Part shown: positions 16,198 to 31,503 of the stretch, piece after piece
Numbering within the stretch: the stretch's first letter is position 1
How the letters are laid out: the number at the start of each line of letters is the position of its first letter
Assembly: GCA_017472065.1 (NCBI GenBank)
Contig: JAFURB010000001.1
Coordinates: 1 to 39,410, forward strand
Direction of reading: 5' to 3'
Origin: Alphaproteobacteria bacterium
Lineage (GTDB): Bacteria > Pseudomonadota > Alphaproteobacteria > Rs-D84
Length of the DNA: 39,410 nucleotides
Position numbers and translations under genes: made by a program
Notes under the pieces: model-generated
The model's database searches: none
What the model saw: only the letters and a program-made list of their open reading frames with translations
What the model was told of the DNA's origin: nothing

Positions 16198-17136
16198 TTA
16201 CACCCTTATTAATGCCGCACCCCAGGTCAGACCACTGCCGAATGCGGGATATAAAATTAATTGTCCATGCCTAATCATACCAGATTCAAATCCATATGCC
16301 AGTGCTAAAACACCGGATGCACCACTGGTATTTGCATGTTTGTCCACTGTGACCAAAATCTTGTCCAGTGGGAAATCCAGACGCGCCGCGCAACTTTCAA
16401 TTATTCGCAGGTTTGCCTGGTGTGGGATAATCCAATCGACATTGTCGGCGGTTATTCCCGCGTGTTCCATTATATATCGTGCCGCATGTGGCATTGACAT
16501 CACGGCGCGTTTGTATGTTTCTGGGCCGTTCATGATTATTTTGTGGTTTTCTGTGCCATGCAGCATTTCGTACCCATCGCCATCGGCCATAACAACCGTA
16601 TCAATTATGCCAGAATAACTGGATGTAGAATGTTCAAATATCAATGCGCCGGCGCCATCACCGAACAACACGGCCGTACTGCGATCGGTCCAATCAATGA
16701 AACGTGACATTTTTTCTGCACCAATAATCATGATGCGTTTATGTATGCCGGCGGTAAAAAACGCACGCGCCGTATGCAGTGCATAAATATACCCTGTACA
16801 TGCGCCACGAACATCAAATGCAGGCTGACTTTTTGTCGCACCCAATCGACCCAATACCTGGACACCGACCGATGGAAAATCCAGTTCCGGTGTCGTTGTT
16901 GCAACGATAACCATGTCTATGTCATCAATGGTAATGTTTGCGTTTTCTAATGCGCGCTGTGCGGCAATTGTCGCCATATCCACAACCGTTTCATCGTCGC
17001 GTGCAATGTGTCGTTCGCGAATGCCGGTGCGTGTGACAATCCAATCATCGGTCGTGTCCATAATGCGTTCAAAATCCGCATTGGTCATAATGCGTGATGG
17101 TAAATATGCACCGTATCCGACAAGTTTGTTGCCCAT
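16198..17136 (-). CDS. fabH: 3-oxoacyl-ACP synthase III (FabH)
   Basis: Starts fatty acid synthesis by condensing acetyl-CoA (or another short acyl-CoA) with malonyl-ACP. 312 residues, full length for the family (about 320). The catalytic triad is clear: Cys113 in RGACTGYIYAL, His239 in IIPHQANLRI, and Asn269 in KHANTSGAS. The early block DDWIVTRTGIRERHI is also diagnostic. It is the first gene of a two-gene unit with ihfA, transcribed from its own promoter. In many bacteria fabH follows plsX directly; here the two are split by about 7 kb and lie on opposite strands. Confidence 0.97.
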   Translation of the reverse strand: MGNKLVGYGAYLPSRIMTNADFERIMDTTDDWIVTRTGIRERHIARDDETVVDMATIAAQRALENANITIDDIDMVIVATTTPELDFPSVGVQVLGRLGATKSQPAFDVRGACTGYIYALHTARAFFTAGIHKRIMIIGAEKMSRFIDWTDRSTAVLFGDGAGALIFEHSTSSYSGIIDTVVMADGDGYEMLHGTENHKIIMNGPETYKRAVMSMPHAARYIMEHAGITADNVDWIIPHQANLRIIESCAARLDFPLDKILVTVDKHANTSGASGVLALAYGFESGMIRHGQLILYPAFGSGLTWGAALIRV

Positions 17137-17216: not shown

Positions 17217-17248
17217 ATAAAAACACCGCAATATGCGGTGTTGTTTTT
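17217..17248 (-). terminator. Terminator of the 623-residue protein gene
   Basis: AACACCGCA-ATA-TGCGGTGTT (17222-17242) with A-tract on one side and T-tract on the other; serves the minus-strand gene ending at 17247. Confidence 0.8.
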
Positions 17249-19118
17249 ATCGTATATCTGAATTAATTTTTTCGATGAAATCAAACAGTTCCTGGTTCTT
17301 TTGTTCGACTTGCTGTTTGGCGGCCTCGATTTTTTTCTTTTCTTCTAATACATGCTGTAACTGTTCTGTTAATTTCAGTAACTCGTCCGTTTCTGATTGG
17401 TTTGACAGTGCGGCTAACAATTCGCGTTGCTGTGATACCAGGATATTGTATCGCGCACTTAATCTGCCGTTCAGATGATACAGCGATGCCCAACGATATG
17501 GTCGTGCTGGGCGGGTTGTTTCTTTTTTTGTTGCGATTTCATTAACCTTTTCAGGTTGCACATCTGGCTGTGGAATTGGGGCCGGTGCATCCTGTCCTTG
17601 GGGGATGATTGGCGCAACATCTTCTGTGCGTGGTTCTATTTTTGGTTCTTCTTTTTTTACTGGTTTTACCATTGGTTCTGCTTTTGGTTCGGCATTTATA
17701 GTGGCGACATCTGGTTCTAGTTCTGGTTTTGGACCAGTTTCCGGTATGATATCTGATTTTTCTGTTGTGCGACCGTCATTGATTTCTTTAATCAAGTCTG
17801 TAACCAACAAATATTCTTTTAGGTCAATCTTAGTTATATCAATATCAATGGTTCTAAGCAATGTGTTATATTCTAACTTTACCTTGCCTTCGTGTGCCGG
17901 ATAGAAGTTTTGACATACAAACACATTACCGCAAATTCCCCATACAATGCGTGGGCGATTGTCCAATGTGCCAAAACCCTGGGCCAGACATCGTCCGTTT
18001 TTGAACCCAACGGTTGGTGATACCTGTACCTGGCCGTCTTTGATAAATACAACCTGGCCAGATGCAGTGTGTGCCAGTGCCGGATTCACATTAATATTTT
18101 CAATGTCCTGTAAAATATCCAACAATGCGTTTGTGTTTTTTCCAACCTTGGATAAAATCTGACCCCACGCAGCCTTGGATATATACTTTTTAATCTTAAC
18201 GCGATGAATTTCGCGATTGCCGATATAGTATTTTTGTGGTTCTGTTTTTGCGGCGGTGGCGCGTTCTGTTTTTACAGACTTTTTCTTTGGCGTGGCTTCT
18301 GGTGCGACTGTGTCATCTTGTGGGATAACGGATTGTGTAATATATTCGACAACACGTGTGATATCATCTTTGTGGATGCATTTGACGACCGTACCGTCGG
18401 CACGTTTCATTTCGCGTGTTTCAACATTTATATTGCTTTTTTTGGTTAAAGCCTGGCGAATATATCTTCGCAAATCTTTATCCATTTTTTGCAGAACATC
18501 ATCCCCCAGCATTTTTTCGCACACAGGCACTAATTCATTTACAGACATCCAATCATCTGTTTGGGATTCTATTTGTGGTGTCACGGGTGTTGTCGTTGCA
18601 ATCTTGGGCTTTGCCACTGCTTGGGTGTTGTTATTTTCCTGGATAATTTCTGCCAATGTTTTTTTGCCGTCCGTCACCGTGATGTCTGGATATGCTTCTA
18701 TAAATTTAATGGCACCTTGATATGCACTGTCATCGGTTGCGTTTTTCTTGATACTATCTTTGACGGCATTAATGATTGCAGGTCTTACAACAACCTTGCG
18801 TACAGAAAGTGGTAATATGCCAACCAACACATCCAGACTGTTGATAGAATGTTTGCAGATTAATGTTGATATTTCTTTTGGCAACACTGTGTCTGCATTA
18901 ATAGTGCATGTTGAACAGTCAAATTCACCATGTATAACAACATCTGTCATATCCGGCAGGGGTTGTCCCTTGCATTTACCCATATCGACCGGCCCAATAA
19001 TTTCCAACGGAAATTCAGGCCCAAACATATCATACGGCAGATCTAACATATCTACAGTTATTATGTCTTTGCCGTCGCCAAGTTCGATGGTTGCTGTGTA
19101 TTTCTGCTTGCTTGCCAC
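17247..19118 (-). CDS. Large soluble modular protein, unknown
   Basis: A 623-residue protein without signal peptide or membrane segment; not recognised. The start is GTG, with AAAGGA eight bases upstream. Parts that can be seen: residues 1-125, beta-rich, with DVVIHGEFDCSTC and TLICKHSINSLDVL resembling one degenerate leucine-rich or BspA-like unit; 188-270, a helical block (MSVNELVPVCEKML...TRVVEYITQ); a Lys-rich linker (277-295); 297-450, a second folded block beginning YYIGNREIHRVKIKKYIS; a Pro/Glu/Lys linker (462-530, repeated EPKxEP); and a C-terminal coiled coil (about 555-620). The two helical blocks may be distant repeats of each other. Possible roles are scaffold or nucleoid-associated protein. 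It has a strong promoter and a terminator of its own. Confidence 0.8.
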   Translation of the reverse strand: MASKQKYTATIELGDGKDIITVDMLDLPYDMFGPEFPLEIIGPVDMGKCKGQPLPDMTDVVIHGEFDCSTCTINADTVLPKEISTLICKHSINSLDVLVGILPLSVRKVVVRPAIINAVKDSIKKNATDDSAYQGAIKFIEAYPDITVTDGKKTLAEIIQENNNTQAVAKPKIATTTPVTPQIESQTDDWMSVNELVPVCEKMLGDDVLQKMDKDLRRYIRQALTKKSNINVETREMKRADGTVVKCIHKDDITRVVEYITQSVIPQDDTVAPEATPKKKSVKTERATAAKTEPQKYYIGNREIHRVKIKKYISKAAWGQILSKVGKNTNALLDILQDIENINVNPALAHTASGQVVFIKDGQVQVSPTVGFKNGRCLAQGFGTLDNRPRIVWGICGNVFVCQNFYPAHEGKVKLEYNTLLRTIDIDITKIDLKEYLLVTDLIKEINDGRTTEKSDIIPETGPKPELEPDVATINAEPKAEPMVKPVKKEEPKIEPRTEDVAPIIPQGQDAPAPIPQPDVQPEKVNEIATKKETTRPARPYRWASLYHLNGRLSARYNILVSQQRELLAALSNQSETDELLKLTEQLQHVLEEKKKIEAAKQQVEQKNQELFDFIEKINSDIR

Positions 19119-19239: not shown

Positions 19240-19315
19240 GTCCCCATAGTTCAATTGGATAGAACAAATTCCTCCTAAGAATTAGATACAGGTTCGATTC
19301 CTGTTGGGGATGCCA
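19240..19315 (+). tRNA. tRNA-Arg (anticodon CCT), CCA encoded
   Basis: 76 bases with a complete cloverleaf. Acceptor GTCCCCA pairs with TGGGGAT (one G-T pair at position 1-72); D-arm GTTC/GAAC; anticodon stem AATTC/GAATT with loop CTCCTAA, anticodon CCT, which reads AGG; T-arm ACAGG-TTCGATT-CCTGT; discriminator G; CCA encoded. No terminator is visible before the convergent transferase gene that ends 16 bases further. Confidence 0.97.
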
Positions 19316-19330
19316 GATTGCTTGATTATT

Positions 19331-20239
19331 TTATTTTTGTTTCTGCGTCATAAAAAGTACATTGTCATAACGGCGGCCCCACATCATGGGTTTTACAAAA
19401 CAATTATCCATCTTGTGACCGGTTGCATGTGTTTTAGTATTTTTCTTGGTGGCAAATTCTTGCCATGCATCCCACATGTTATCGCGCGTTGATGAATTAT
19501 TGCCCCACATATATTCTAATATGATTGTCCCGCCATCTGGGCAAAGGTTGTTTTGTGCCAAATCATTTAGTGTGCCATTATAGAACTGATTTAATGCCTG
19601 GTAAGCATCTGGTATTTCACTATGTTGGAAATCAAAAATATTAGACAGCATGATGAAATCGTATTTTCGCGTAAAGTTTGCGGTCAATCCTGTGATGTCC
19701 AGATGTTTGAAACTGATGCACCGGGGCAATTTTTTTGCCAACAGGTTATATTTTTCTTCGTATGAATAATATGTGTTATCGTAATGGGCTGTAATATCCA
19801 GTTGCCCATTATACGCGAACAATTTGCGACCGGCATTACCCATACTGTAATACAGGTCCATAAACATACGCAACGATGGTGAAAACAGTGGCATGATTGG
19901 TTTGATTATTTGTATATCAAAGAATCGGTCCCTGGTAAAAAAGAATTCCAGAAAATCTTCATATGGAATATTTTTAATCATATGATTTTTTAGTTCTATG
20001 ATTGGTTTCTGGCGATAATTGATATCAAATGTATCCACGTGTTTTGCGCCACGTGCATAGCATTCAAATGCATGGTCGCCAGATGCGCCGACCGCTAATA
20101 CTGTTTTACCAGATAAATCAAATTTATCCAGGTATCCTGCAACATTTTCATTTGAAAACAAGAAAACTTCCAGGTCTTTTCTATAACCCTGGCTGGTACA
20201 AACCGTATCTTGATTAAAATCAGGCATATTTTGAAACAT
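19331..20239 (-). CDS. DUF3419/BtaA-like SAM-dependent transferase, paralogue 3 of 3
   Basis: 302 residues, third gene in a tandem array. The Rossmann-like SAM site shows as VLAVGASGDHAFE (47-59) followed by AKHVDTFDINY (65-75), the acidic end of strand 2, then QKPIIELKNHMI and the aromatic stretch FLEFFFTRDRFFD. A later strand holds FIMLSNIFDF, and near the C-terminus comes GGTIILEYMWG. The pattern SGD-N-A, VDxFDxNxxQ, ELK resembles the DUF3419 family, whose known member BtaA moves the aminocarboxypropyl group of SAM to diacylglycerol in betaine-lipid synthesis; that enzyme is longer (about 400 residues). Its ATG lies one base after the stop of the gene before it, so the two are translated together. 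Substrate unknown. Confidence 0.75.
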   Translation of the reverse strand: MFQNMPDFNQDTVCTSQGYRKDLEVFLFSNENVAGYLDKFDLSGKTVLAVGASGDHAFECYARGAKHVDTFDINYRQKPIIELKNHMIKNIPYEDFLEFFFTRDRFFDIQIIKPIMPLFSPSLRMFMDLYYSMGNAGRKLFAYNGQLDITAHYDNTYYSYEEKYNLLAKKLPRCISFKHLDITGLTANFTRKYDFIMLSNIFDFQHSEIPDAYQALNQFYNGTLNDLAQNNLCPDGGTIILEYMWGNNSSTRDNMWDAWQEFATKKNTKTHATGHKMDNCFVKPMMWGRRYDNVLFMTQKQK

Positions 20240-20240
20240 T

Positions 20241-21158
20241 TTATCGCACTTTTTGTGTCAGGGTTGTTATAACATCTGGTCGATCTTTTAATATGGTTGA
20301 TGTCGGTACATCTATCATGTCGATAACATGTTTATGTGTATCAAAATTATCAACGGATTGTGCCATATATCGTTGAATTGCATCAATCATTTCGCGATAT
20401 TTCACATTATCTGTATACCAACGATAATTAAAGCACATGACCCCACCATTTGGATTCAGGTTTTTGTCTGCAATTGGCATCAAAATCTTGTCACGAAATG
20501 TCATGATTCTTTCTGGCACATCCTGTATTTCTGTGAACATATATTCAAATATATTTGACATCAGTATAATGTCATAAACACCATCAAATTTATTTGATAT
20601 GTTTGATATGTCTGTGTGTTTGAAACGGATTTTATCTGGCAAAATTTTCCCAAGGTGTTCATATGCTTTTTCATCGTTAATATATGATATTTTATCAAGA
20701 TTATAGTATGAATCTTGGGACGAGCCGTATACGAACATTACTTGATCTTTTCTTTCGTAGTATTTTTTCAAAAACATCCGTGTTCCCGGGGACAATTTGT
20801 TCCAAATAGGTCGTATGATTTCACGATCAAAAAATTTTTTGTGTGAAAAAAAGAAACGCATAAAATCATGATAACTAAGATTTTTAATCATCTTGGTTTT
20901 TAATTCCATCACATGTTTTTGCAGATAATTTATATCAAAAGTATCCACGTGCTTTGCGCCACATAAAAAAGATTCAAATGCGTGATCGCCACTGGCCGCA
21001 ACGGTCAAAACATCTTTGCCTGATACATTACCCAATTTTTTCAGATAATCTGCAATGTTTTCATTTGTAAATAAAAATACAGGTCCCGCCCAATTAAACG
21101 GTTGGCCTTTAACGCGTTTCTTATTCAGTGCAAAATGTGTTTTAATTATGTCCATCAT
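20241..21158 (-). CDS. DUF3419/BtaA-like SAM-dependent transferase, paralogue 2 of 3
   Basis: 305 residues, middle gene of the array. It shares SGDHAF, GAKHVDTFDINY and ELKTKMIKNL with both neighbours. Differences: a longer basic N-terminus (KTHFALNKKRVKGQP), a basic stretch SHKKFFDREIIRPIWNKL, and MSNIFEYMF in place of LSNIFDF. The C-terminal strand reads GGVMCFNYRWY. Ten bases separate it from the stop of the gene upstream. The first two codons are both ATG (21158 and 21155). Divergence at the C-terminus, with the cofactor half conserved, suggests a shared reaction on different acceptors (inference). Confidence 0.75.
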   Translation of the reverse strand: MMDIIKTHFALNKKRVKGQPFNWAGPVFLFTNENIADYLKKLGNVSGKDVLTVAASGDHAFESFLCGAKHVDTFDINYLQKHVMELKTKMIKNLSYHDFMRFFFSHKKFFDREIIRPIWNKLSPGTRMFLKKYYERKDQVMFVYGSSQDSYYNLDKISYINDEKAYEHLGKILPDKIRFKHTDISNISNKFDGVYDIILMSNIFEYMFTEIQDVPERIMTFRDKILMPIADKNLNPNGGVMCFNYRWYTDNVKYREMIDAIQRYMAQSVDNFDTHKHVIDMIDVPTSTILKDRPDVITTLTQKVR

Positions 21159-21168
21159 TTTTTATTAA

Positions 21169-22080
21169 TTATCTTTGTTTTTCCAGGACCAAAATATGTG
21201 ATTTTACCGCGGATGATGCATTTATAATTTGTGCCGGGATTTCAACTGTACTCATTTTTAATCCAGATTTAGACATCATTTCATTAAATGCAGATTCGAA
21301 TTTTTTCCACTCGCCAAAAAAGTCTGGTCTGTTGCATGCGCGTGTCCCCCACAGGTATTCAAACGCAATCTTGCCCCCAGGATTCAGATTATTTTCTATA
21401 ATTGGAATCAATATATCACCATAAAATTTCATCAGTGCCCCCTGGGTCGATGGCGCATCCAAATACATATAGTCGAATATATTTGACAACACAACCAAGT
21501 CGTATTTGGCGCTTAATTTGCTGGGCAATGTTTCCAAATCGTTATGTATAAAAGATATGTCTTTGGGTAATCTTGATTTGATTAAATCATATTGTTTTTT
21601 GTTGTTTATATATGGAACCCCGGGATTGTTTATCGCGCGGCCATAAACAAACATACGACGGGCATCTGCGACATTGGTGCTGTAAAACACTTCCATATAT
21701 AATTTCAGCGGGTCTGAAAATTTGTTCCAAATTGGCGCGATGATTTTGCGGTTAAAGAAATTATTTTTGCCATAGAAAAATGCTGTAAATTCATAATATG
21801 GCAATTCGCGAATCATCGTGTTTTTTAATTCATAGATTAATTTCTGGGCATAATTCACATCAAATGTATCAACATGTTTTGCGCCCGCCCCATAAAATGT
21901 AAACGCATGGTCGCCGGACGAACAAACACTTAACACGCGCGCACCGGTTAAATCTTGCCCAAGATTGTTTGCGTATCCACATACATTTTCATTTGTAATC
22001 AGAAATGTCTGGCCTACGGTGTTAAATGTATGGCGGCGTGAATCAAGTTCTTTGTTAAAATCAGGTTCTTGGTAAAACAT
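21169..22080 (-). CDS. DUF3419/BtaA-like SAM-dependent transferase, paralogue 1 of 3
   Basis: 303 residues, promoter-proximal gene of the array. The SAM-site strand is VLSVCSSGDHAFTF, followed by GAKHVDTFDVNYAQK, ELKNTMIRELPYYEFTAFF, VLSNIFDYMY and GGKIAFEYLWG. The opening MFYQEPDFN matches paralogue 3 (MFQNMPDFN) better than paralogue 2, so 1 and 3 look like the closer pair. A promoter ends only ten bases before the ATG, giving a leader of three to five bases without a ribosome site. No signal peptide or membrane helix in any of the three, so the enzymes should be cytoplasmic or peripheral to the membrane. Confidence 0.75.
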   Translation of the reverse strand: MFYQEPDFNKELDSRRHTFNTVGQTFLITNENVCGYANNLGQDLTGARVLSVCSSGDHAFTFYGAGAKHVDTFDVNYAQKLIYELKNTMIRELPYYEFTAFFYGKNNFFNRKIIAPIWNKFSDPLKLYMEVFYSTNVADARRMFVYGRAINNPGVPYINNKKQYDLIKSRLPKDISFIHNDLETLPSKLSAKYDLVVLSNIFDYMYLDAPSTQGALMKFYGDILIPIIENNLNPGGKIAFEYLWGTRACNRPDFFGEWKKFESAFNEMMSKSGLKMSTVEIPAQIINASSAVKSHILVLEKQR

Positions 22081-22090
22081 GATGCTAAAT

Positions 22091-22118
22091 ACAATAGCAC
22101 AAAAATCCGAATTGTCAA
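22091..22118 (-). promoter_or_regulatory. Promoter of the transferase array (near-leaderless)
   Basis: Minus strand TTGACA (22118-22113), 16-base spacer ending in TGC, TATTGT (22096-22091). The first ATG is at 22080, so the mRNA leader would be only a few bases. Confidence 0.65.
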
Positions 22119-22194: not shown

Positions 22195-22521
22195 ATGAAA
22201 AACAAAGCCGTTAAAATTGGGATTATTGCATCAATTGTGCCACATATATTCTGCTGTGGGGTGCCAATTGCGTTGTCTGTTATTGGTTTGATTGCGCCTG
22301 AATCCGCGCACTTTCATCTAATTCCGCATAATTGGGAACCATTTTTGTTTATTGTTTCTGGGGCAATGCTGTTGTTTTCATGGTATTTGGTGGCGCGTGA
22401 TTGCCGTTGTCAATGTGAACACTGTGGTGGCGATAAATCGCATCGCGTCCAGAAAATTATCATGTCGATTATTACATGTATTTTTATATTCAGTGTTATA
22501 TTGCATCTGATTTCACATTGA
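22195..22521 (+). CDS. Small three-helix membrane protein with metal-binding cysteines
   Basis: A 108-residue inner-membrane protein with hydrophobic segments at about 7-33, 49-67 and 88-106. A vicinal cysteine pair, Cys20-Cys21 in PHIFCCGVPIAL, lies in the first segment, and the loop after the second contains Cys70, Cys72, Cys74 and Cys77 (DCRCQCEHCGG), followed by a basic patch. The CC pair followed by G-x-P inside helix one resembles mercury or metal transport proteins of the MerC/MerT type, but it is not a firm match. It is the only complete gene in the window ending in TGA. Its own promoter separates it from the divergent array. A metal or thiol function is likely, the ion unknown. Confidence 0.7.
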   Translation: MKNKAVKIGIIASIVPHIFCCGVPIALSVIGLIAPESAHFHLIPHNWEPFLFIVSGAMLLFSWYLVARDCRCQCEHCGGDKSHRVQKIIMSIITCIFIFSVILHLISH

Positions 22522-22571
22522 TATTAATTTAATCATGTATTTTTTTATTTTGCGTGTTAATATGGCCATGT

Positions 22572-23894
22572 ATGAAATGGCCGTTTCTATTTTTATCAAT
22601 ATTTATGACTTTGCCTGTGGTCGGTGAAACACTGACCATGTCCACAATGGATGCGATGCAATTGGCTGGGAATTTGGTTGAACGTGGTGACTTGTCGCAT
22701 GCAGAACAAATATTAAATAATATGCCGCCGATGGCGGATGTTGCATTGGAAACAGAACGCAGTTTTCTGCGTGGACAAATTGCCATGGCGCGTGGTGATT
22801 ATGATATGGCTGCAAAAATATATCGTGATTTATTAGATGTGTATCCAGATTTGGCCCGTGTTCGTTATGAATTGGCGCGCGTATATATGTACCAGAAAAA
22901 ATGGCATCGCGCCGATTATCATTTGCGCCTGGCAATGGCGGGTCGCGAATTGCCAAACGATGTAAAAAACACAATGTCGTACATGCGGTACCTGGTCCGT
23001 CAAAACAAGAACTGGAACACATGGTTTAATATTGGTGCGGCCCCAGACAACAATATAAACAATGCCACCGGTGGCACAGAATGTGTTGATACGATGTTTG
23101 GTCCAATGTGTCGTGAATTGGCCGATCCAGAATCCGCGGTTGGCATAAATGTTGCGTTGGGTGGCGACTATGAATTCAAAATAGATAAAAATTGGCGGTG
23201 GAAAAATTCTGGAACATTGTACCTGAATAAATACAACCTGCGCGAATATGATGATTTGTATATTGGTGCATCAACCGGACCACGATATGTATATGAACAT
23301 GGTTCTGTGTGGCTGTCTGGTGTGTTTGCGCGCCGATATTATGGATGGGATCCATACATGTATAAATATGGTGTGCGTATTGACACAGACTATGATTTTA
23401 CCCGTCGTCTGTCATTAAATGCATCGATTGAATATGCCAAGAACAAATATGACCAATATTCCAGTGTTATGAATTCAGATGGATATTATGGAAATTTGGC
23501 ATTGATATATTCTATTGATGCATCTAAATACATTATGATGCGTGGTGGCGTGTCCCGTGAAATTGCACATGCGGATGCATATTCATTGTGGCGACCAGGA
23601 TTTGGGATTGGATTTGGTGCCGAATTACCATATGGTTTTAGTTTTTATGCAGAACCTTATTTTTATTGGACTGCATACGATGCCGCGCGATGGGTTGTCT
23701 ATGATGGCAGGTTTTCAAAAATTACAGAACACGATTTCACACATCGATACAGTGTTCGTATATCCAACAATAAATTAGACATATGGGGATTTGTCCCAAC
23801 GATTACATATTCATACACACAACGCGATTCAAATGTGTGGCAACGCGAATTCAAAAAGCACAGTATTGAATTCACAATGATGCAACGGTTTTAA
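22572..23894 (+). CDS. Slam-like outer-membrane protein (TPR plus beta-barrel, DUF560 type)
   Basis: 440 residues from the chosen ATG, which gives a clean signal peptide (MKWPFLFLSIFMTLPVVGE); the frame extends six codons upstream, but the extra residues would spoil it. After the signal come TPR-like helices (about 30-130: AMQLAGNLVERGDLSHAEQIL, ARGDYDMAAKIYRDLLDVYPDLARVRYELARVYMYQ), then WFNIGAAPDNNINNAT, typical of the start of the barrel in surface lipoprotein assembly modulators (Slam), and a barrel with alternating aromatic strands to the C-terminal Phe (IEFTMMQRF). Slam proteins help lipoproteins reach the cell surface. No lipoprotein gene with a lipobox lies next to it, so the client is elsewhere or the role differs. 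Confidence 0.75.
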   Translation: MKWPFLFLSIFMTLPVVGETLTMSTMDAMQLAGNLVERGDLSHAEQILNNMPPMADVALETERSFLRGQIAMARGDYDMAAKIYRDLLDVYPDLARVRYELARVYMYQKKWHRADYHLRLAMAGRELPNDVKNTMSYMRYLVRQNKNWNTWFNIGAAPDNNINNATGGTECVDTMFGPMCRELADPESAVGINVALGGDYEFKIDKNWRWKNSGTLYLNKYNLREYDDLYIGASTGPRYVYEHGSVWLSGVFARRYYGWDPYMYKYGVRIDTDYDFTRRLSLNASIEYAKNKYDQYSSVMNSDGYYGNLALIYSIDASKYIMMRGGVSREIAHADAYSLWRPGFGIGFGAELPYGFSFYAEPYFYWTAYDAARWVVYDGRFSKITEHDFTHRYSVRISNNKLDIWGFVPTITYSYTQRDSNVWQREFKKHSIEFTMMQRF

Positions 23895-29718: not shown

Positions 29719-30675
29719 ATGGCAATTAAAGTCCGTGATTTTGAGGTGCGTTTAACCCGCAACAAAGAAGAACGCAAACAGGTTCGTCAATTGCGTTACA
29801 AAGTATTCGTCGAAGAAGAAGGTGCCGGTGTCACCGATGAACAGCGCGCCCTGGGCGAAGAATACGATGCGTATGATCGTTTTGCCGAATATATGGCTGT
29901 GTTTCACAATGGTCGCGTTGTTGGCACATACCGTATCATTGACAGAAATGCGGCGGAAAAAATGGGCGGATTTTATACCGAAAACGAATTTAATATTTCC
30001 AAGATAAAAAAATATCGTGGCAACATCGCCGAAATGTCCCGTGCGTGTGTTGACCCAGAATATCGTGAAAATGCATTGACGATGCGTTTGTTATGGGCCG
30101 GCCTTGGTGAATACATTGTCCGTCGCAAGATTGGGGTGCTGTTCGGTGTTGCGTCATGGGTTGGTACCAAACCGGCCAAATCGGCCCAGGCGATTTCATA
30201 TCTGTACTATAACCATTTGACACCGCTGCGTCTGCGTGCGACGGTTGTGCCTGAAAAATTTGCCGATGGTGTAAATCCAAAACTGGCGCGCATGAATATT
30301 TTACCACCCGAATTTGTTGACGAAACAGATGCTAAACGCGAAATGACCCCATTGATTAAGGGGTATTTGCGTCTGGGTGCCACATTTGGCAAGGGTGTAT
30401 TTGTTGATGCACCATTTAATTCATATGATGTTTTTGTAATGATGGAAACCCGCAAAATGGATGCCGCATACCAGAAACATTTCTTGGGTCGTGAAAATGC
30501 CCTGGGCGACATGGGCGAAGACAAAGACGGTATTATCAAGACAATTGGTAAAATTGTTACTTTCCCTGTGACAGGCCCGTTAAAGGTTATGCGTGCATTT
30601 GTTGAATTCCTGCTGCACGAAGATGCCGCCGATGCCGAATATATCGAAGATACAGAAAAAACAGAAGAAGAATAA
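29719..30675 (+). CDS. olsB: L-ornithine N-acyltransferase OlsB-like (GNAT fold)
   Basis: OlsB attaches a 3-hydroxy fatty acid from ACP to the alpha-amino group of ornithine, the first step to ornithine lipid. 318 residues. Family blocks: RQLRYKVFVEEEGA, DxxDxxAEYMAV, GRVVGTYRIID, FYTENEFNISKI, AEMSRACVDPEYR, and the pair VLFGVASWVGTKPAKSAQAISYLYY. The C-terminal tail (about 255-318) is acidic. It is followed after three bases by a PlsC-type acyltransferase, the expected partner OlsA, so the pair should build ornithine lipid or a similar aminoacyl lipid. AAAGGATAGATT lies before the ATG. Confidence 0.85.
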   Translation: MAIKVRDFEVRLTRNKEERKQVRQLRYKVFVEEEGAGVTDEQRALGEEYDAYDRFAEYMAVFHNGRVVGTYRIIDRNAAEKMGGFYTENEFNISKIKKYRGNIAEMSRACVDPEYRENALTMRLLWAGLGEYIVRRKIGVLFGVASWVGTKPAKSAQAISYLYYNHLTPLRLRATVVPEKFADGVNPKLARMNILPPEFVDETDAKREMTPLIKGYLRLGATFGKGVFVDAPFNSYDVFVMMETRKMDAAYQKHFLGRENALGDMGEDKDGIIKTIGKIVTFPVTGPLKVMRAFVEFLLHEDAADAEYIEDTEKTEEE

Positions 30676-30678
30676 GTT

Positions 30679-31503
30679 ATGGCAAAATCTAAATTACGCA
30701 AACAGAATATTTTCAACACAACATCTGCAGCGATAAGGTTTATGTTGTTCTGGGTGATGGTTGTTATCCAGGTTCCAATCATCGCATTTTTGCCACGTCG
30801 TTGGGCGGTTCAATACATGCCGGTATTTATGTGGTTCTTGCTAAAACTGGGTGGGATTAAGATTGTTGTGCATGGAAAATTATCCGATGCGCGTCCATTG
30901 ATGGTTGTGTCTAATCATATATCAGTGTTTGAAATTGCGACATTTCCGTCTGCTTTTCGTGGCAGTTTTATTGCCAAAAAAGAAATGGAAAATTGGCCAC
31001 TGGTTGGTTGGGTTGCAAGAAAGTTTGGTGTGATATTTGTTGATCGTCGTCCATCACATGCGCGTGATGCGTTGTCGGTTGTGCAAAACGCGGTTCAAAA
31101 TGTTAAATATCCAATGATTCTGTTCCCCGAAGGAACCACAACAAACGGTGCATATGTAAAACCGTTCAAAAGTACATTGTTCAGTTTTGTTGAAAATTCA
31201 AATGTGACGGTACAACCGATGGCGATGCATTATCGCTACAAAGATGGTACACCGATTGATGAACAAACCATGGCTGATCACTTTGCGTATTTTGACAACA
31301 AAAAAATAGATATGGGTCCACGCTGCAAACGCGAACGCAGTGCATTTGGCCAGGTATTTCACATCATGATGTTGGGTGGATTTATGGTTGAAATTACATT
31401 ATTGCCACCACCACCCCTGGCGGGGTTAAACAGAAAAGAAATCGCAGAAGTATTACAAAAACAAGTATCTGATAAATACATGGAATTAAAAGACAAGAAA
31501 TAA
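30679..31503 (+). CDS. PlsC-family acyltransferase, probable OlsA
   Basis: 1-acylglycerol-3-phosphate / lyso-ornithine-lipid O-acyltransferase family, 274 residues, inner membrane. One or two hydrophobic segments open the chain (about 13-35, AAIRFMLFWVMVVIQVPIIAFL). Motif I reads SNHISVFEIA: the His is kept, but the usual Asp of HX4D is Glu. Motif II: FIAKKEMENWPLVGWVARKFGVIFVDRR; motif III: LFPEGTTTNGAYVKPFKS. It is translationally linked to olsB (three-base gap), which favours OlsA over a housekeeping PlsC. Some dual-function enzymes serve both pathways, so the exact substrate is open. Confidence 0.8.
   Translation: MAKSKLRKQNIFNTTSAAIRFMLFWVMVVIQVPIIAFLPRRWAVQYMPVFMWFLLKLGGIKIVVHGKLSDARPLMVVSNHISVFEIATFPSAFRGSFIAKKEMENWPLVGWVARKFGVIFVDRRPSHARDALSVVQNAVQNVKYPMILFPEGTTTNGAYVKPFKSTLFSFVENSNVTVQPMAMHYRYKDGTPIDEQTMADHFAYFDNKKIDMGPRCKRERSAFGQVFHIMMLGGFMVEITLLPPPPLAGLNRKEIAEVLQKQVSDKYMELKDKK

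Follow-up and report, generated by a model that had tools for sequence, protein, structure and literature searches.

Three adjacent genes of the window (the whole 39,410-nucleotide stretch of DNA analysed) encode short relatives of BtaA that combine a BtaA-like SAM-binding half with C-terminal halves that differ from one paralogue to the next. The chance is judged about even that these proteins are three cytosolic SAM-dependent transferases with a common donor site and paralogue-specific acceptors, aminocarboxypropyl transfer being the likelier chemistry. Each protein would bind SAM in its conserved half and would transfer a group, more probably 3-amino-3-carboxypropyl than methyl, to an acceptor of its own. 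The acceptor would be held by the divergent C-terminal half and would probably not be diacylglycerol. Tandem duplication and later divergence of the acceptors would account for the triplet and, as separate events, for the gut Bacilli arrays of 21-47 genes.

The gene triplet and its insertion site

The triplet was confirmed as three adjacent open reading frames of 302-305 aa at 19331-22080, all on the minus strand. Gene 3 (21169..22080, minus strand, 303 aa) is transcribed first, followed by gene 2 (20241..21158, minus strand, 305 aa) and gene 1 (19331..20239, minus strand, 302 aa), with 1-10 bp between neighbours. A sigma-70-like promoter close to consensus, TTGACA-16-TATTGT with an extended -10, was located just upstream of gene 3 (22091..22118, minus strand); promoter matches in the triplet region overall were no commoner than in shuffles. 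The short spacing and the good promoter match suggest that genes 3-2-1 probably form a single transcript with a very short leader. The window genome is ∼80% complete with a size under 1 Mb, and the triplet proteins were its only PF11899 matches.

One boundary of the triplet is a tRNA-Arg (CCT) gene (19240..19315, plus strand), the 3′ end of which lies 15 bp from the gene 1 stop. The other is a divergent gene (22195..22521, plus strand) for a small membrane protein of 108 aa (cluster c2) with weak MerC/MerT matches. Beyond the tRNA lie a 623-aa protein of unknown family (cluster c7; 17247..19118, minus strand) and fabH (16198..17136, minus strand; PF08541 and PF08545), and no BtaB-like gene follows the triplet, in agreement with the initial annotation. 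Family genes have the tRNA-Arg(CCT) gene as a neighbour at 19 of the 24 loci in Alphaproteobacteria. Twelve congeners carry an empty site, in which the small membrane protein and tRNA-Arg are followed by fabH and/or HU with no intervening gene; at one further unoccupied congener site a different gene stands in place of the family. From the empty sites, the triplet is a cassette inserted at a tRNA-Arg hotspot.

The 623-aa protein was present at the site only together with transferase genes (11 of 19 occupied vs 0 of 13 unoccupied sites, Fisher p 0.0006, kinship not corrected). fabH and HU were ruled out as functional partners, being ancestral flanks that are present in empty sites too, and the analysis found no conserved functional partner gene or acceptor.

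Two further kinds of gene were recorded near family members. A Slam-type surface lipoprotein assembly modifier (PF04575, 111 bits) adjoins the triplet at 22554-23894, and a gene similar to it lies near the family pair in locus L142. Proteins of cluster c1 (700-1000 aa, cysteine-rich, with a seeming N-terminal signal peptide) were found at loci L078 to L106 and L133, in several copies per genome and often beside transferase genes; the single member scanned had no Pfam match.

Donor half and C-terminal half

The profile PF11899 (DUF3419) has a length of 385 positions and a curated Pfam cut-off of 28.2 bits. The products of genes 1, 2 and 3 scored 34.0, 50.3 and 46.3 bits, respectively. Scores above the cut-off with E-values of 2.4e-8 to 2.6e-13 indicate kinship rather than chance, and the DUF3419/BtaA relationship proposed from the sequence was upheld for all three proteins. 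PF11899 was the top Pfam family of each, in place of the ordinary methyltransferases that might have been the best matches, and when the proteins were scanned one by one, no methyltransferase family reached its Pfam cut-off. Among 115 relatives, 73 matched PF11899 at E ≤ 0.001 and generic methyltransferase models matched at most 8 each. The match of the triplet proteins was restricted to profile positions 13-119 at most, the SAM-binding N-terminal part, and so fell short of full length; true BtaA proteins of other Alphaproteobacteria cover positions from about 7 to 384.

A profile alignment of 52 relatives of the triplet proteins with nine BtaA proteins placed window residues 25-136 against BtaA residues 50-161 (E 6e-9). 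It stops at BtaA residue 161: the BtaA middle segment of ∼140 residues (roughly 165-300) and the conserved BtaA C-terminus are absent from the triplet proteins, the C-terminal half of which has no significant homology to BtaA. In BtaA this segment lies between the SAM half and the last Rossmann strands, and it may serve the diacylglycerol acceptor. The true BtaA proteins fetched were 403-429 aa long, in keeping with the earlier estimate that the triplet proteins are about 100 residues shorter. A sequence search of the PDB returned no BtaA structure. A BtaA model had a mean pLDDT of 62, its alignment holding 57 usable rows nearly all from the short family; in its confident part the order of helices and strands matched that of the triplet proteins, an agreement that is not independent because the alignment included the short family.

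Over their whole length the three paralogues share 36-40% identity. The figure rises to 49-60% for residues 25-136 (the SAM half) and to 60-72% for the core motifs and drops to 28-30% for residues 137-305, which bears out the description of a common cofactor half (SGDHAF, GAKHVDTFDxNY, ELK) joined to a differing C-terminal half. D75, N77, Y195 and N202 were invariant in the 115 relatives, D196 and S201 were nearly invariant, and E33, G57 and D58 were conserved in about 88-94%. Literature naming DUF3419 contained nothing on the short family, judged by titles and abstracts, and no experiments on any of its members were found in the literature.

Distribution, arrays and selection

A profile search of 99 related genomes found the family in 39, all of one genus apart from one weak match. 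The same search of 385 genomes of the class returned that genus only, apart from BtaA proteins and weak matches to methyltransferases. Extended to 85,000 species genomes, the search placed the family in gut Alphaproteobacteria, gut Bacilli and one Clostridia-labelled MAG. The alphaproteobacterial carrier genus is probably Ca. Enterousia; for Rs-D84, candidate genus Enterousia, a gut habitat, dependence on partners and reduced genomes have been described (PMC12306168). A viral or plasmid origin of the family was rejected, as no relatives were found in IMG/VR, phages or plasmids. PHROGs gave nothing specific.

In Bacilli the family forms long arrays of head-to-tail genes. Counts over whole genomes reached 47, 26, 25 and 21 copies, the genomes in question measuring 1.1-1.8 Mb (1.6 Mb for the one with 47). 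Most genomes are metagenome assemblies, in which assembly could affect array copy numbers; four assemblies agree on the array pattern and two share colinear arrays. Carriers of that Bacilli order mostly had 1-4 copies, and 86 of 146 genomes had none. Arrays of about 10-17 family genes were present at loci L162, L172, L173 and L179 of gut Bacilli MAGs. Many Bacilli arrays, with copy numbers of 1 to at least 14, sit between two genes that we take to be cotE and rpsP from reading the sequences.

In the tree, the alphaproteobacterial members split into two subfamilies and the Bacilli members into several clades. The two expansions in Bacilli and the one in Alphaproteobacteria occupied separate clades and look independent. 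Colinear array orthologues of two Bacilli species were mostly 72-96% identical, whereas members inside one Bacilli array were mostly 33-53% identical whatever their distance, so that divergence of the units preceded the species split and the units have been kept since. The gene order 3-2-1 of the window recurs in L135, and in L133 and L142 with one gene missing; gene 2 had reciprocal best matches in all three loci. The gene 3 orthologue L135:8072 was 83% identical with a dN/dS of 0.11, and the gene 1 orthologue L133:9931 was 81% identical with a dN/dS of 0.13. Values of 0.10-0.24 were obtained for 11 of 12 orthologue pairs and 0.30 for the remaining pair, and dN/dS was well under 1 in both protein halves. 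Judged by these comparisons, the triplication predates species divergence and the paralogues are kept by purifying selection.

The retained orthologues and gene order together with the low dN/dS point to distinct fixed functions and argue against antigenic variation. Antigenic or anti-phage diversification by the arrays, as opposed to a fixed metabolism, would suit tandem arrays of varying copy number, a patchy distribution and a cassette at a tRNA site, but it is distinctly unlikely in view of this conservation; in addition, PADLOC gave only a weak methyltransferase-domain match, and a strongly hydrophobic stretch was present in just 7 of 187 members.

Copy number also bears on the lipid role that was initially proposed, in which the triplet would make betaine or other phosphorus-free lipids. 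Kinship to BtaA speaks for it, as did the OlsB-like GNAT and PlsC-like acyltransferase genes 8 kb away, the presence of which was confirmed (29719-31503). The link between these genes and the triplet is nevertheless coincidental, OlsB being found in 57 of 59 congeners with or without transferase genes. The triplet proteins lack the middle segment of BtaA, a search of the whole window genome at its ∼80% completeness gave no BtaB (best match 18 bits, generic), and 21-47 copies per Bacilli genome are hard to reconcile with lipid headgroups. A lipid role is therefore very improbable. The OlsB/PlsC-like pair is kept across a genus that is said to lack lipid biosynthesis (PMC12306168).

The preferred reading of distinct transferases accommodates the idea of one chemistry on several acceptors: the constant SAM half, the divergent remainder, the purifying selection and the larger arrays all agree with it, while aminocarboxypropyl transfer is the part that we infer. 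Genomes of ∼1 Mb have shed most biosynthesis, yet these retain one family of SAM enzymes, which some Bacilli have greatly multiplied; 47 copies in 1.6 Mb are a remarkable outlay. A cassette-borne family in reduced-genome gut bacteria of two phyla, with up to 47 paralogues per genome that each aminocarboxypropylate their own acceptor, would be a multi-target modification system without known counterpart; this wider proposal is tentative and rather unlikely to hold in full. The acceptors would reveal the targets that these little-studied gut bacteria modify, possibly during contact with other cells.

Transferred group and comparison with known enzymes

An AlphaFold model of the gene 2 protein, built with 115 relatives, had a pLDDT of 93.9 and a pTM of 0.93. 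Foldseek and VIA-align assigned the predicted structure to the class I SAM-binding (Rossmann) fold, in which the invariant D75 is the acidic residue ending strand 2. The C-terminal half supplies the generic strands 4-7 of that fold. Methyltransferases and spermine synthase scored alike in searches of solved structures, and because spermine synthase was tied with many methyltransferases the fold does not fix the transferred group. The best viral fold match of the window model was A0A5K0UB36 (BFVD, E 1.1e-7, well ahead of the next), an uncharacterised 632-aa protein of Yasminevirus, a giant virus; it is possibly a BTA1-like giant-virus enzyme, perhaps a fusion.

The triplet proteins could instead be ordinary methyltransferases of small molecules, RNA or protein that share only ancestry with BtaA. 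Most fold neighbours are methyltransferases, the C-terminal motifs YDxIxLSNIxxY and NLxPGGxI resemble generic methyltransferase strands 4-5, and weak matches to methyltransferase models were obtained. The SAM half, however, scores far better against BtaA than against any methyltransferase family, and it carries BtaA-type motifs, the initial helices of the insert seen in BtaA and, in part of the family, the BtaA-type lysine in the helix that follows strand 2. Methyl transfer is accordingly a real, if somewhat doubtful, possibility. Aminocarboxypropyl transfer is modestly favoured over it, because the donor half is that of BtaA and of no methyltransferase family. Such chemistry would extend beyond the few known enzymes, namely BtaA, nicotianamine synthase and the tRNA and rRNA enzymes.

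Of 96 congeners, 84 lacked the MTA/SAH nucleosidase PF01048, which normally clears the by-product MTA. This was set aside as uninformative about which by-product is released, the absence saying as little for SAH as for MTA. In a review of aminocarboxypropyl transferases, BtaA did not appear homologous to nicotianamine synthase, CntL or MccD (PMC10491745).

The class I methyltransferases (UbiG, CheR, Methyltransf_12/31) have in common with the triplet proteins the Rossmann fold, the acidic residue after strand 2 and strands 4-5, and differ in motif I, which is of SGD type in the triplet and not GxGxG. Spermidine/spermine synthase, which transfers aminopropyl from decarboxylated SAM, has the same fold, and 3c6k was among the best VIA-align matches (Z 12.6, rmsd 3.9, 170 aligned); identity was 12%, there was no sequence match and the Z-score was tied with those of methyltransferases. 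BtaA, the S-adenosylmethionine:diacylglycerol 3-amino-3-carboxypropyltransferase, has the SAM motifs WED, SGGCN, VDLN and KLK with the helices that follow them, for which the triplet counterparts are NEN, SGDHAF, FDIN and ELK. Common to both are Y-x-x-[NW]-E-[ND], T-hhh-SG, hD-h-N, a K in the helix that comes next, FF and the beginning of the helical insert that follows strand 2; the position of residue 130, which is W in most Bacilli members, aligns with SRxYW of BtaA. Unlike BtaA, the triplet proteins are ∼110 residues shorter, stand without a BtaB partner and occur as tandem paralogues.
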